NCBI RefSeq assembly: GCF_000423225.1
Contig: NZ_AUHO01000006.1
Coordinates: 682,001 to 746,000, forward strand
Direction of reading: 5' to 3'
Length of the DNA: 64,000 nucleotides
DNA from: Kaistia adipata DSM 17808
Lineage (GTDB): Bacteria; Pseudomonadota; Alphaproteobacteria; Rhizobiales; Kaistiaceae
The position numbers and the translations under genes were made by a program. Below are positions 8,798-62,494 of the stretch, piece after piece. The notes beneath the pieces are model-generated. The model saw only the letters and a program-made list of their open reading frames with translations. It made no database searches and was not told the DNA's origin. The stretch's first letter is position 1. Every line of letters starts with the position of its first letter.

Positions 8798-11005
8798 TCA
8801 GGCGTTGACGCGGTTGGCGGCGCTGACGACGTGGCGTTCGCGCAGGTCGCTCAGAAGGCGGTTGAGGTGCTTCAGGTCCCAGACCTCGAGATCGATCAGC
8901 AGCTCCGAGAAATCGGGCGCGCTCTTGACGATCCGGAGATTGGAGATGTTGCCGTCATTGTCGGCGATGATCTGGGCGATCTGCGCCAAAGTGCCGGGCT
9001 CGTTGATCGCAGTCACCTCGATGCGGGCGGGGAACCGCTCGCGGTTGGCGGCGTCGATGTCCCAGCGCACGTCGAGCCAGCGATCCGGCTCGTCGTCGAA
9101 TTCCTTCAGCGCCGGCGACTGGATCGGGTAGATCGTGATCCCCTCGCCCGGGGTCATGATACCGACGATGCGGTCGCCCGGCACCGCACCCGCCTCGGGC
9201 GCGAAGCGGACGGGCATGTCTCCATGCAGGCCGCGGATCGGGATCGACGGCAACTCCGCCTGCGTCTCGCCGTTCGGAACCCGGAACACCATGCCCGAGC
9301 CCTTCTTGAGCCCGAACCAGCCGGGCTCGCCGCCCGTGCCGTTGCCGCCCTTCGGCACGGCCGCGCGCTCTTCCTTGTGATCCGGGTAGACAGCCTTCAG
9401 GACATTCACCGACGGGATCTCGCCGCGTCCGACCGAGGCCAGCATGTCCTCGATGTTCTGCTGCGCCAGGCGCGGCAGCGCTGCCTTGAGGCGATCGTCC
9501 GAGAAGTCGCGACCGGCCCGCTCGAACGCGCGCTCGATGATCTTGCGGCCGAGGCCGGCATATTGCTTGCGGATCGCCGTACGGGCGGCGCGGCGGATCG
9601 AGGCGCGCGCCTTGCCGGTGATGGCGATCGATTCCCAGGCCGGCGGCGGCACCTGCGCCTTGGAGCAGATGATCTCGACCTCGTCACCATTGTGCAGCTC
9701 GGTGGTCAGCGGCATCATCCGGCCGTTGATCTTGCAGCCGACGCAGGTGTCGCCGATGTCGGTGTGCACCGCATAGGCGAAATCGATCGGCGTCGCGCCG
9801 CGCGGCAGCGCGATCAGACGGCCCTTCGGCGTGAAGCAGAACACCTGGTCGTGGAACAGCTCGAGCTTGGTATTTTCGAGGAACTCTTCCGGCGTGTCGC
9901 CCTCGGCCAGCATCTCGACCGTACGCCGCAGCCAGGTATAGGCGCGACTCTCGTCGGAGAGATTGCCGTTGCCCTTGTCCTTGTAGAGGGCGTGCGCGGC
10001 GATGCCGTATTCGGCGACGTCGTTCATCTCGCGGGTGCGGATCTGCAGCTCGACGCGCTGCCGGCCGGGGCCGACCACGGTGGTGTGGATCGAGCGGTAG
10101 TCGTTCTGCTTCGGCGTCGAGATATAGTCCTTGAAGCGGCCCGGCACGGTCGGCCAGGTCGTATGCACGATGCCGAGCGCGGCATAGCACTCGGCCGTCG
10201 AACCGACGATGACGCGGAAACCGATGATGTCGGAGAGCTGCTCGAACGAGACGGCCTTCCGCTCCATCTTGCGGAAGATCGAATAGGGCCGCTTGGTCCG
10301 GCCGAAGACCTTGGCCTGCATGCCGTGCTTTTCGAGCTTCTCGCGCAGGTCCTTCTCGATTTCCTCGATCAGAGTCTCGTTGCGGCTGCGCACTTCGGCC
10401 AGACGGTTGGTGACCGCGAGATGCGCCTCGGGATTGACGACCGCGAAGGCCAGCTCTTCGAGCTCCTCGCGCATGTCGTGCATGCCCATGCGGCCGGCCA
10501 GCGGCGCATAGATCTCCAGCGTCTCCTCGGCGATGCGGCCGCGCTTTTCCTCCGGCATGAAATGCAGCGTGCGCATGTTGTGAAGCCGGTCGGCCAGCTT
10601 CACCAAGAGCACGCGCACATCCTCGGAGATGGCGAGCAGGAGCTTGCGGAAATTCTCCGCCTGCGCGGCCTTCTTCGTCACCAGGTCGAGGCGCTTGATC
10701 TTGGTCAGACCCTCGACCAGGCGGCCGATATCCTCGCCGAACATGCCGTCGATTTCCGAACGCGTCGCGTCCGTGTCCTCGATGGTGTCATGCAGCAAAG
10801 CCACCGCGATGGTGGCGTCGTCGAGCTTCAGGTCGGTGAGGATGCCCGCGACTTCGAGCGGATGCGAGAAATACGGATCGCCGTTGGCGCGCCGCTGCGC
10901 ACCATGCTTCTGCATGGCATACACATAGGCCTTGTTCAAAAGCCCCTCATCGGCCTGCGGATTGTACCGCTGGACACGCTCGAGGAGTTCGTACTGGCGC
11001 ATCAT
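8798..11005 (-). CDS. rsh: bifunctional (p)ppGpp synthetase/hydrolase Rsh
   Basis: 735 residues; the single long RelA/SpoT homolog of alphaproteobacteria. Domains in order: HD hydrolase (about 30-150; [10 protein letters not shown] and [10 protein letters not shown]), synthetase (about 235-350; [36 protein letters not shown]), TGS (about 385-450; [24 protein letters not shown]), and a C-terminal ACT domain (about 655-733). Both catalytic domains look intact. [14 protein letters not shown] is taken as the start; the upstream in-frame ATG at 11053 adds an unconserved Cys-rich piece. Confidence 0.95.
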
Positions 11006-59263: not shown

Positions 59264-60316
59264 TCATGACGAGCGAGGGGCTTGCCCGCCGCGCTTCAGG
59301 AGCTCGCGGAACACCGACCGGCGCCAGGATTGCAGCGCCCGCTCCTCCGTCTCCATCGCCATCACGACGCGGCCGTCGATCAGGAGCCGCGCGGCGCGCC
59401 GGAAACGGACGGGCGAAAGCGCGTCGGCGATGCTGCGGCATCGCGCGTCGTCATAGAGCCTGTCCGCCAGGTCGAGCGCCGCGACCAGCGCGAGGCGGAT
59501 GCCAGAACGGTTGACCAGATCGTCGAGCGCCTGCTCCTCGGCGGCGCCGTCGAGCCGCCGCGCCGCCTGCAGGACGTCGACGACCAGACGCAGCAGCTCG
59601 AAATGATGAGAACTGGCGGCATGGACGCCGGCGATGGCGAGGCGCGCCGACGGACGTGCCGCTGAGGCGGGATCGCCATCCGGGCAGAGTTCGTCGAAGC
59701 CGAGCGACAGGACCGACCGCAAGCCGGGCGCATGCACCAGATTGCCCTGGATTTCCAGCATCAGCATGGGATGGCGGACATGGATCCACTTGCGTTCTAG
59801 CTGCTCGTCATCGCGTTGGCTCGGATGCAGCGCGAAATCCGACCGCGCCGCGACAGCCTCGACCTCGTCCAGCCGATCGAGGGGGACGATGATGTCGATG
59901 TCACTGGTCGGCCGGAGCACGGGATCGGGATAAAGGTTCTCGGCGAAATCCTGCCCCTTGATCAGCAGGGCCGGCGCGCCGGCCGCTACGAGCGCCGCCT
60001 GGAGCTGCTTCGCCTGCGCCCGAAGCTGCATGTTGAAGGCGACGCCAGCCTGGTAGCGCATGGCGAAATGATCGCGAATCGGCACCAGGTCCGGCGTGGA
60101 CAGCCCGGGCCGCACCTTCCTGAGGACGGCCGGGAGCACGCCGTGCCGCTCGGCCTGCGACAGCAGCCGCTGCGCGCGCGCGGCGGCAAGCGGCGGCGGC
60201 GCCATGCTGCCCTCGGGGTCGGCGAGCGCGATGAGCAGGCGCGAATCGGCGCCCGAAAGCCGACGCGGCGTCTCGGAGGCTGAAGGGATCGTGCCGTCGG
60301 TCTCGCTGGCGGACAT
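59264..60316 (-). CDS. lasso-cluster-type nucleotidyltransferase (NTP_transf_5)
   Basis: 350 residues. LLIKGQDFAENLYPDPVLRPTSDIDIIVPL (about 118-145) has the G-K, Arg and SDID metal motif of the uncharacterised nucleotidyltransferase family that recurs in RiPP clusters with HprK-like kinases. The remaining helical domain (about 200-330) is variable. It follows the 31-residue peptide gene by 150 bp on the same strand, across a hairpin. By analogy with PsmN-type proteins it may add a group to a phosphorylated peptide; the donor is unknown. ATG at 60316 chosen. Confidence 0.82.
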   Translation of the reverse strand: MSASETDGTIPSASETPRRLSGADSRLLIALADPEGSMAPPPLAAARAQRLLSQAERHGVLPAVLRKVRPGLSTPDLVPIRDHFAMRYQAGVAFNMQLRAQAKQLQAALVAAGAPALLIKGQDFAENLYPDPVLRPTSDIDIIVPLDRLDEVEAVAARSDFALHPSQRDDEQLERKWIHVRHPMLMLEIQGNLVHAPGLRSVLSLGFDELCPDGDPASAARPSARLAIAGVHAASSHHFELLRLVVDVLQAARRLDGAAEEQALDDLVNRSGIRLALVAALDLADRLYDDARCRSIADALSPVRFRRAARLLIDGRVVMAMETEERALQSWRRSVFRELLKRGGQAPRSS

Positions 60317-60409
60317 GGGGCTACTCTGGCTGGAAGTCTCGATGCTGGGTGAAGCGACGCACAATGTTCACCGAGTCGGGCGCCCTGTCATGAGGCTCAA
60401 ATGCAAGAA

Positions 60410-60435
60410 GCGGAGCCGCATCGCTGCAGCTCCGC
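60410..60435 (-). terminator. hairpin between peptide gene and nucleotidyltransferase
   Basis: Stem GCGGAGC/GCTCCGC with an inner GCA/TGC pair and a 4-base loop, followed on the minus strand by TTCTTGCATTT. It lies 30 bp after the peptide stop. A leaky terminator here would make more peptide mRNA than enzyme mRNA. Confidence 0.5.
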
Positions 60436-60465
60436 CAACAAACCGGCCTATGCCAAAGGCAGGGA

Positions 60466-60561
60466 TCAGCGCGGCAGATACGGCCCGCCCGACATCGACG
60501 CGACGATCATGGCCACACGCTCGCGCTTCAGAAGCGCGGGCTGCTCGTAAGTCTTCTTCAT
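60466..60561 (-). CDS. putative RiPP precursor peptide
   Basis: 31 residues, too short for standard gene calls. It starts MKKTYEQPALLKRERVAMIV and ends SGGPYLPR. The YxxPxL signature at residues 5-10 with a following KRE is the leader motif bound by PqqD-like B1 proteins in lasso clusters. Downstream of the leader there is no Asp or Glu, so no isopeptide ring can form, and the usual leader Thr is absent. Ser22 and Ser24 are possible phosphorylation sites. Flanked by a nucleotidyltransferase and divergent B1/B2/kinase genes. Confidence 0.72.
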   Translation of the reverse strand: MKKTYEQPALLKRERVAMIVASMSGGPYLPR

Positions 60562-60765
60562 TGTCAGCTCACAAATCAACAGGATGACATTCACCTGCCC
60601 CAGCGGAATACAACCGAATCCGCCCCCCGGGTCAACGCCTCCGGTCGCCGGCGGGCGCCCCGCGCGGACTGGCAAGTGAACCGCGTCACAGTCCGCGTCG
60701 ATGGCCCCTTCCGCCTGACGCCGCGTTCCGCTATCGAAGGCGGATTGCCCGTGGGGGAACATGAT
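60562..60765. promoter_or_regulatory. divergent promoter region of the RiPP cluster
   Basis: About 200 bp between the minus-strand peptide gene and the plus-strand PqqD-like gene. The peptide-proximal part is AT-richer than its surroundings. No convincing -10/-35 or palindrome could be fixed by eye. Confidence 0.35.
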
Positions 60766-61059
60766 ATGCCGAGCATCGAAACGGGCACCATCTGGGCCCT
60801 GCATGAGAACACCAGCTTTCAGCCGCTCGGCGATGGCGAGGGCGGCGTGTTGCTGGACACCAATTCCGGCCAGCTCTTCACCTGCAACGACACGACGGCG
60901 GCCTTCCTCTCGGCGGTCGACGGCGCGCGCGACTTCGCCGGCATCCTCGGCGAGCTCGAGAAGGTGTTCGACGTCGAGGCGTCGATCCTCCGGGACGACA
61001 TGACCGAGCTTGCGAGCCAACTGGCCGCCGAAGGCCTGATCATTCGCGTCGAGCCGTGA
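60766..61059 (+). CDS. PqqD-like RiPP recognition element (B1) protein
   Basis: 97 residues. The winged-helix RRE fold is suggested by GGVLLDTNSGQLFTCNDTTAAFLSAVDG, then LGELEKVFDVEASILRDDMTELASQLAAEGLIIRVE, the typical PqqD/lasso B1 pattern. It should bind the YxxPxL leader of the facing peptide and hand it to the B2 protease. ATG at 60766 is preferred because GGGGGA lies 7 bases upstream; the in-frame extension to 60676 is not PqqD-like. The stop overlaps the B2 GTG (GTGA). Confidence 0.87.
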   Translation: MPSIETGTIWALHENTSFQPLGDGEGGVLLDTNSGQLFTCNDTTAAFLSAVDGARDFAGILGELEKVFDVEASILRDDMTELASQLAAEGLIIRVEP

Positions 61060-61484
61060 CGCCGGACCTGCTCCTGCGGCTTAAATTCCGGGCCGAGATG
61101 TGGTTCTGGGCCAAGACCCTGCCGCTCCGCTGCCGGAAGTCGCGGGACTTCGCCGACATCCTGCACATCGCCGATGCCGGCGCGAGCCGCCGCTATGCCG
61201 GTCTCGCGGCCGCCTATGTCGCCAGGCGCGCCAAGAAGGCGGGCCGCCGACCCTGGGTGATGCGCGACCGCCGCTGCCTGCGCGAGGGCATCCTCGCCTA
61301 TCGCTTCCTCACGCTCGCCGGCGTACCGGCGACGATCCATTTCGGCGTCGACCGCACCAGCATCGGCAAGGCGAAGCTCGCCGCCCATTGCTGGGTCTCG
61401 GCCGACGACATGCCGGTCCTCAACCCGCCCGAGCCCACCATGGTGACCATCTTCACCGAGAAGAACCGCGTCGGAACCGCCTGA
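61056..61484 (+). CDS. lasso peptide biosynthesis B2-type leader protease
   Basis: 142 residues of the transglutaminase-like superfamily. Catalytic Cys74 is in RRCLREGILAYRFLTLAG, His111 in AAHCWVS and Asp117 or Asp118 in ADDMPVLNP, so the Cys-His-Asp triad looks intact. One deviation is AHCW in place of the commoner AHAW. Cleaves the leader of a peptide delivered by B1. GTG start at 61056 overlaps the PqqD stop; the TGA shares a base with the next ATG. Confidence 0.88.
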   Translation: MTPDLLLRLKFRAEMWFWAKTLPLRCRKSRDFADILHIADAGASRRYAGLAAAYVARRAKKAGRRPWVMRDRRCLREGILAYRFLTLAGVPATIHFGVDRTSIGKAKLAAHCWVSADDMPVLNPPEPTMVTIFTEKNRVGTA

Positions 61485-62494
61485 TGCTGCGCAAGCGATA
61501 CGTCATTCCGGGCCTTGCCTTTCGCCTCACCGCCGAGCCGGGCACGCATGGGGAGACGGCGCTGCCGCAACTCGCGCAGTTCGAGGGCGACGAGACACAT
61601 CCGGTCGACCACGAGATCCTCGTGACGACCGCGCCCGGCGACGACGCGGCGACGATCGGTTCCCTCATATGGAGCGGTGCGCTGATCGACGGCACCTACG
61701 CCGAGGTCAGCCGCGACGGCGACCACCAGCAGTTCCGCATCCCCGGCCAGATCTCGATCGTCGAGACGCGTGGCGAGCCCGTGACGTGGGTCGAAGTGGC
61801 GGCCGGTACGGATAGACCGTTCCGCGGCATGGCGGCAGCCGTCCTGCTGGACACGGTGATCCGCGACCATGGCCTGTTGACCATCCATGCCGGCTCTCTG
61901 ATGCCGCCGGGGCGCGACGACCTCGTGCTGCTCTTCGCGCCGAGCGGCTTTGGCAAGACGACGACCTCGCTGGCCCTGGCGCTCTCCGGCTATGCCCATC
62001 TCGGCGACGACATGGTGGTACTGCGCAAGGAAGCGGAGGGCATCCTCGCCTGGGGCATGCCGCGCACGCTGAAGGTGCAGCGCCGCACGGCCGCGATGTT
62101 TCCCGAGATCCTGCCGCATCTCGGCGCGTTCGGCGGCGACGAGGACGAGGCGCCGCTGACGCGGGACGCGCTTGCCGCGATGATGCCCCTGCCCGATCCG
62201 GCAAAGAGCTACCAGACGGCGGCCATCGTGGTCGTCGGCCCGCGCTCCGAGGGCCCTGCCCGCGTGCGCCCGATCAGCAAGGCCGAAGCGCTTTCCGTCA
62301 TCCTGACCGACAATATCGGCGTCTTCTCCGACGGCGTGCCGCGGGCGCAGCGGGAACTGTTCCGCCTGCTGACGACGCTGGTCTCGACCACCCCGACCTT
62401 CCAGCTCGATGCCGGCAGCGATCCCCATAGGATCGCAGCCGCCTTCGATGAGGCGCTCGGCATCGTTAGCGCCGCGTCCACCATCGAGGCCTGA
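61484..62494 (+). CDS. HPr-kinase-like peptide kinase
   Basis: 336 residues. The C-terminal half resembles HprK: HAGSL (about 135-139), P-loop FAPSGFGKTTTS (about 151-162) and LGDDMVVL (about 173-180). No PTS or HPr gene is nearby. In paeninodin-type lasso clusters a homologous kinase phosphorylates the precursor's terminal Ser. ATG at 61484 is set by the TGATG overlap with the B2 gene; the longer in-frame reading begins inside B2 and is rejected. Substrate here is inferred. Confidence 0.85.
   Translation: MLRKRYVIPGLAFRLTAEPGTHGETALPQLAQFEGDETHPVDHEILVTTAPGDDAATIGSLIWSGALIDGTYAEVSRDGDHQQFRIPGQISIVETRGEPVTWVEVAAGTDRPFRGMAAAVLLDTVIRDHGLLTIHAGSLMPPGRDDLVLLFAPSGFGKTTTSLALALSGYAHLGDDMVVLRKEAEGILAWGMPRTLKVQRRTAAMFPEILPHLGAFGGDEDEAPLTRDALAAMMPLPDPAKSYQTAAIVVVGPRSEGPARVRPISKAEALSVILTDNIGVFSDGVPRAQRELFRLLTTLVSTTPTFQLDAGSDPHRIAAAFDEALGIVSAASTIEA

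Follow-up and report, generated by a model that had tools for sequence, protein, structure and literature searches.

The DNA analysed here, a window of 64,000 nucleotides from contig NZ_AUHO01000006.1 of Kaistia adipata DSM 17808, contains at positions 59264-62494 a block of five genes that would mature a ribosomally synthesized and post-translationally modified peptide (RiPP). The block is divergent, with a nucleotidyltransferase-like gene, N, and a precursor peptide gene, A, on the minus strand, and B1, B2 and a kinase gene, K, on the plus strand. The original prediction, made from the sequence alone, had proposed these five genes in 3.2 kb, and all of them occupy the positions that it gave. 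A (60466..60561) encodes a precursor of 31 amino acids, MKKTYEQPALLKRERVAMIVASMSGGPYLPR, that contains the motif YEQPAL and is identified by sequence, by tblastn and by a precursor profile. N (59264..60316) is transcribed leftwards, and the next gene after it encodes a Crp-like protein. A terminator-like hairpin with a 12-pair stem (60409..60436, minus strand), recognized by consensus match only, is placed 30 bp past the stop codon of A; since it lies directly past this gene, A may be transcribed as a unit of its own, apart from N. The interval from 60562 to 60765, read from the sequence as a divergent control region, separates A and B1, and a consensus scan of 60300-60800 found no sigma-70-like site. 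B1 (60766..61059) encodes a discrete RiPP recognition element (RRE) of the PqqD family, B2 (61056..61484) a putative Cys-His leader peptidase of the transglutaminase-like superfamily with an AHCWV signature, and K (61484..62494) a predicted HprK-like peptide kinase. In the window sequence B1 and B2 overlap by 4 bp and B2 and K by 1 bp, in agreement with the earlier claim that no internal gene has visibly been lost.

The limits of the unit are defined by other Kaistia genomes. B2 is found in six of the 14 genomes examined, one copy per carrier, and the six carriers share one gene order, N, A, B1, B2, K, with the B1, B2, K and N reading frames open. All eight genomes without B2 have the Crp-like and TetR genes adjacent, with 71-192 bp between the aligned ends, and within 14 kb around this site none of the five genes was found in any of the eight. 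Since the whole block is missing at the Crp-like/TetR site of these non-carriers, the unit is a discrete five-gene cassette, and a cyclase is not part of it. A is not a chance reading frame, because it is matched by tblastn in other Kaistia loci: counterparts in four loci give E=4.7e-10 to 1.4e-7, and the strongly diverged one of carrier G011 gives E=0.002. This G011 copy (locus L022, about 8880-9130, plus strand) is over-long, running into a much longer frame with an in-frame ATG upstream.

Phosphorylated lasso clusters are equipped with B1, B2, a kinase and N (PMC9266682 and PMC10368454), and their discrete RRE, B2 leader peptidase and YxxPxL leader are all present here. The original prediction had accordingly described a lasso-type cluster merely lacking its asparagine-synthetase-like cyclase, C. 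That the locus is an ordinary phosphorylated lasso cluster, with a cyclase elsewhere or recently lost, deserves next to no credence. No asparagine-synthetase-like gene occurs within the block, as had been predicted, and the single full-length PF00733 gene of the window genome, on another contig (C1:1282445), scores as an asparagine synthase (497 bits, cut-off 267) and not as a lasso cyclase (191 bits, cut-off 525). In the five other Kaistia carriers no full-length PF00733 gene was found, only partial matches. A cyclase acting in trans is rejected on both counts.

A scan of the genomes of 84,980 species with a B2 alignment returned 76 loci, mostly from Mesorhizobium and otherwise from Kaistia, Devosia, Hoeflea, Chelativorans, Aquibium, Prosthecomicrobium, Roseovarius and some metagenome-assembled genomes (MAGs), two of which are labelled Planctomycetota and Verrucomicrobia. 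B1, B2, K and N without a C-like gene are present in 74 of the 76, within stretches of up to 10 kb on each side that are unequal in length and in some cases end at contig ends. At L099 B2 alone is visible. The C-like gene of L094, the single candidate among these homologous loci, scores as an asparagine synthase (353 bits, cut-off 267) and not as a lasso cyclase (197 bits, cut-off 525). Three genes next to B2, together with the asparagine synthase of the window genome, went into the C profile; as it also picks up asparagine synthases, failure to match it is a conservative criterion for absence. Genuine lasso clusters, cyclase included, do exist in relatives, and L031, the positive control, scores as lasso cyclase with 788 bits against 525. 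A recent deletion of C, one of the two outcomes that the original prediction had named as refuting it, is rejected on the strength of the 74 loci and the empty Kaistia sites; the other, a cyclase elsewhere, was not borne out in the window genome, so that both checks favoured the prediction. In a class sample of 37 alphaproteobacterial B2 loci, 20 of them chosen for a PF00733 match near B2 and 17 for none, 28 have a C-like gene, and among the other nine B1 and K are found only at L165.

The B2 proteins point in the same direction. In a tree of 64 rows, 33 of the 34 cyclase-free rows fall on one branch (SH-aLRT 89), and judged by sequence the cyclase-free proteins are a largely separate lineage. 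In the kinase tree the cyclase-free label needs two changes. The residue after the B2 histidine is Cys in 86 of 87 cyclase-free rows and Ala in 19 of 24 rows with a C-like gene near. L165 (G179), a B1-B2-kinase locus without a C-like gene and outside the main cyclase-free branch, is possibly an independent case.

The precursors tell the same against a lasso product. A profile grown from the local peptides recovers a uniform family, MKKTYEKPxLxKREKLSxVTA followed by a short tail; the profile used, A3, derives from 26 hand-picked rows. The resulting set of 138 unique precursors is anchored on YxxP, which was required at extraction and is invariant by construction, and some of its members are weak, with E-values of up to 0.5 accepted near cassettes; candidates lacking a usable YxxP, three in all, were dropped, and two cores longer than 25 residues were set aside. 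Leu stands two residues after the Pro in 124 of the 138 and the 17th residue from the Tyr is Ala in 133, preceded by Thr (57), Ala (41), Val (39) or Met (1). This register is the one of BsfA, Y(-17)/P(-14)/L(-12) (PMC10368454). Applied to the window precursor, it predicts a leader MKKTYEQPALLKRERVAMIVA (60499..60561, minus strand) and a core SMSGGPYLPR (60469..60498, minus strand) of 10 residues without Asp or Glu, in which Ser3 is the likely phospho-acceptor by analogy with BsfK and LppK. The 136 cores of up to 25 residues are 5-18 residues long (median 9), and every one contains Ser or Thr. Ser occurs at +3 to +5 in 118 of them, against a mean of 51 and a maximum of 67 in 2000 rounds of shuffled core letters. 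With a leader-only profile (E<=1e-3), which has no means of favouring the core, the count is 110 of 128. A lasso ring needs an Asp or Glu at positions 7-9 plus a tail. Only 20 of the 136 cores have such an acid and only four of these are 13 residues or longer; the window core, with its 10 residues and no acid, is not lasso-capable. Scored against named precursor families (Pfam DUF5972; NCBIfam lasso_cyano, lasso_leader_L3 and PadeA), the window precursor registers with two and stays below the cut-off of each (13 against 22.6 and 12.3 against 33 bits), and the best E-values of the other 25 rows are 0.0011 and 0.00027. A nearby Cys pair, often around a Ser in a C-x-S-x-C arrangement, is present in 16 of the 136 cores (for instance at L171, L172, L183 and L222) and could allow a disulfide. 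Hence the description as a lasso cluster short of one gene is not supported: the B2 lineage is largely separate, the cores are too short and the precursors, as follows, are dispersed.

Presence of the cassette and of precursors is linked across genomes. B2 occurs in 12 of 101 related genomes, in ten of them within a cyclase-free cassette; of the remaining two, G037 has B2 with C, and G027 has one B2 with C and another on a 3.7-kb contig. Precursors (E<=0.01) were detected in all ten cassette genomes and in one of the 91 others, G095, where the match (E=0.006) begins at position 11 of the profile, falls within an 857-aa frame and was judged a chance event. With G095 so taken, 10/10 against 0/91 gives a Fisher p of 5e-14, for carriers that are related and not independent. 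Of 386 other alphaproteobacteria, 37 of them with B2 in the same draw, none gave a precursor match at E<=0.001 with at most 20 candidates scored per genome. Carrier genomes contain 2-15 precursors (E<=0.01), and all six Kaistia carriers have remote ones. The window genome has ten besides A, all remote from its one cassette: five stand in tandem on contig 3 and the others are solitary genes on contigs 1, 2 and 3, two of the ten being beside phage genes. In G011 a six-copy array lies 1.27 Mb away from B2. Among the 76 loci, 37 have no precursor within the DNA examined around the cassette at the threshold used, while local precursors below it exist in at least L041, L081 and L100; in whole-genome searches precursors were found in 19 of 19 carriers, including 16 of 16 without a local one. 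At L095 (11487-13422, minus strand), from a Rhizobiaceae MAG, ten tandem precursors adjoin one cassette on the opposite strand.

These data bear on whether the block is a decaying relic of a lasso cluster. The diverged local A of G011 in its much longer frame, the Val at position 117 of the G011 B2 and the 37 loci without a local precursor would suit decay. Against it, all six Kaistia carriers have open B1, B2, K and N reading frames, the searched genomes without a local A keep remote precursors, and the pooled leader pN/pS is 0.30 over seven best-reciprocal pairs of remote precursors, at least one of which is doubtful; a relic is thus very improbable. A Shine-Dalgarno-like motif precedes 29 of 40 remote Kaistia precursors, under a lenient criterion and with no control.

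The neighbours of remote precursors are mostly unrelated metabolic, sensor or membrane genes, and Pfam scans of 30 flanking proteins at 10 such loci found no constant partner gene. Near the remote precursors of L217 and L226 there is a response regulator gene, and near those of L219 and L225 an outer-membrane beta-barrel gene. Three precursors adjoin phage genes: that of L221 (6498, minus strand) is flanked by phage tail genes and a lysozyme, and those of L220 in the window genome (6577, minus strand) and L231 in G010 (6374, plus strand) adjoin an endolysin gene, on which the phage setting of L220 mainly rests. Each of the three is encoded on the other strand from the phage genes, in the manner of a moron gene. 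Two queries found no precursor in sequenced phages. One query against plasmids gave three Mesorhizobium records, with precursors at L237:5001-5084 (NZ_CP045499.1) and L236:8001-8093 (NZ_CP080533.1); one of these two is annotated by NCBI as 'putative RiPP precursor' and the other is unannotated, so the peptides have not gone wholly unnoticed. Remote precursors, especially where they adjoin phage genes or sit on plasmids, could be decoys that occupy B1 and block the host pathway. Highly variable cores behind a kept leader, and the opposite-strand genes beside phage genes, would agree with such a role. A decoy, however, does not need the Ser at +3 to +5 that is kept across local and remote cores, and the tandem arrays of five and six copies look like products, which makes decoys improbable, if less so than a relic.

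Turning to the enzymes, B1 matches PqqD PF05402 (E=1.1e-10), and a profile search places TfuB1 (6jx3, E=2.6e-8) nearest to it among solved structures. B2 is assigned by alignment and by matches to NCBIfam lasso_biosyn_B2 (57.4 bits, cut-off 33) and Pfam Transglut_core3 (E=6.7e-14). The intact Cys-His-Asp set of the original prediction stands for Cys74 and His111, which do not vary in any of the 87 cyclase-free rows (some loci counted twice), and less so for its third member, discussed below. The kinase has H135, an SGFGKT P-loop with K158, and D175-D176; these residues are invariant in 10 of 10 homologues and match the His/P-loop Lys/Asp-Asp set of BsfK (PMC10368454). Its AlphaFold model (pLDDT 89.8) gives 545 Foldseek matches of which the best 50 are all PEPCK, with TM 0.42-0.50 by query. 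HprK and PEPCK are structurally related, and the top solved relative of the kinase by sequence profile is an HPr kinase, weakly (E=0.0027). The sole PADLOC match at the locus, which would have suggested a defence system, is to Cas3 (E=0.0075), covers the P-loop region only and was rejected. A SpI- or SipW-like leader peptidase is not among the five window genes, to which this check was confined; B2 is there instead.

N belongs to NTP_transf_5 (PF14907; E=1.2e-26), with KG...DxD...E residues invariant in 10 of 10 homologues. Foldseek matches of its AlphaFold model (pLDDT 87.1) are weak, none reaching E<=0.001, with ANT(2'')-Ia and LnuA among the top ones. It is conceivable that N is a glycosyltransferase and not a nucleotidyltransferase, and that the product is a linear phospho-glyco-peptide. 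PsmN, also annotated as a nucleotidyltransferase, is required for the hexose on the phospho-Ser of pseudomycoidin, although the same review leaves a host enzyme possible as the source of the sugar (PMC9266682). The invariant residues and the weak structural matches to aminoglycoside and lincosamide adenylyltransferases fit nucleotidyl transfer, and deletion of lppN in the system described below gave no detectable change (PMC13381572). We regard glycosyl transfer as a serious possibility that falls somewhat short of even odds.

Taking these results together, we propose that the block is a self-contained RiPP maturation cassette for short linear modified peptides, not lasso peptides, with a probability of roughly three in four. 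In the model, whose chemistry throughout is deduced from homologous enzymes, B1 would bind the YxxPxL leader, as in its family, and the HprK-like kinase would phosphorylate core Ser at +3 to +5, once or several times, as demonstrated elsewhere on Ser3 for BsfK and LppK. B2, as register and active-site residues suggest, would cut after Ala(-1) to release a core of 5-18 residues, and N would add a nucleotide, or a hexose as reported for its relative PsmN, to the phospho-Ser, which is the least certain step. As the cassette has no cyclase and the core is too short for a lasso, the product would stay linear. This agrees with the leader-cleaved, phosphorylated and possibly nucleotidylated linear peptide that had been predicted at the outset, and we also consider that outcome the most likely one. 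The linkage data suggest that the enzymes act in trans on many precursors, in the window genome on one beside the cassette and ten elsewhere. Secretion, if any, would use machinery outside the cassette since the latter has no exporter. Whether one chromosomal B1-B2-kinase-nucleotidyltransferase cassette is a genome-wide maturation system for dispersed, fast-changing, ultra-short precursors, yielding linear phosphopeptides of 5-18 residues that bear a nucleotide or sugar cap, with prophages and plasmids shipping their own precursors for the host enzymes, is a wider claim that we hold to be evenly balanced. A part in biological conflict or signalling is suggested by the patchy distribution, the tandem arrays, the variability of the cores and the occurrence of precursors next to phage genes and on plasmids.

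Several points weigh against this proposal. The kinase assignment depends on motif, fold and context, with sequence scores far below curated cut-offs (HprK_rel_A E=8.3e-7, 28 bits against 200; Hpr_kinase_C E=0.054). Position 117 of B2 is Asp in only 78 of 87 cyclase-free rows, which leaves the third catalytic residue uncertain, and seven of the 136 cores have Thr only, on which LppK is inactive (PMC13381572). An MsbA-like exporter is absent from the cassette as bounded by the empty site, a boundary taken from Kaistia only. The linkage counts do not represent independent events: one genus accounts for six of the ten carriers, and G015 and G016 have their precursors locally, near the cassette. 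The search of the 386 other alphaproteobacteria was capped at 20 scored candidates per genome. Among the 16 Mesorhizobium-type genomes without a local precursor, a second cassette was checked for in only G094. The support of the B2 branch (SH-aLRT 89) is below the starred level, with the cyclase-free row L165 outside. G011 combines Val at position 117 of B2 with the diverged local A; its remote six-copy array, L232, looks intact.

If the proposal is correct, soil- and plant-associated Alphaproteobacteria such as Kaistia, Mesorhizobium and Devosia, among others, make a family of tiny modified peptides, and cluster-based mining would miss them because many precursor genes are far from the enzymes. 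It would also extend cyclase-free phosphopeptides beyond the Bacillota and suggest that B2 peptidases work outside lasso biosynthesis. Presence and absence of the cassette within one genus would then be a natural experiment on the role of the peptides, including why phage-like regions carry precursors.

One modifying machinery serving many genome-dispersed precursors is known from the prochlorosins of marine cyanobacteria, which differ in their lanthipeptide chemistry and unrelated enzymes. In lasso mining, only about 4,000 of almost 8,000 RRE model matches co-occur with a peptidase and a cyclase, and the rest are treated as possible false positives (RRE-Finder, PMC7470986). Paeninodin and pseudomycoidin share with the cassette an HprK-like kinase with the His-Lys-Asp-Asp set and, in pseudomycoidin, PsmN, but their modified Ser is C-terminal and their ring is closed by C (PMC9266682). 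The Bsf lasso cluster of Bradymonas sediminis is closer: it has A, B1, B2, K and N, the register Y(-17)/P(-14)/L(-12) and a residue other than Thr at -2 (Ile), and BsfK acts on core Ser3 with the help of B1; unlike the cassette, it includes a cyclase C and a transporter D, and its core is expected to close a Gly1-Asp8 ring (PMC10368454). The open-licence PMC literature yielded no account of the alphaproteobacterial system, and the nearest is that of the Linear Polyphosphorylated Peptides (LPP), cyclase-free phosphorylated relatives of lasso peptides described as restricted to Bacillota (Popov et al., Nat Commun 2026, May; PMC13381572). Both systems have a YxxP leader, a discrete RRE, an HprK-like kinase, an NTP transferase, no cyclase and a linear product, with an acceptor Ser near the cleavage site, Ser3 and not Thr being the substrate of LppK; linearity and acceptor are predictions in our case. 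LPP clusters use a SipW-like signal peptidase, LppS, where the Kaistia cassette has B2, and they carry an MsbA-like exporter where the cassette has none. Their precursors measure 35-200 aa (the LppA core 45 aa) and number one to three per cluster, against about 25-45 aa, cores of 5-18 aa and many genes far from the cassette here. The best reading, therefore, is that of an alphaproteobacterial counterpart of the Bacillota LPP that differs in peptidase, phylum, core size and lack of an exporter and, above all, in its dispersed precursors.

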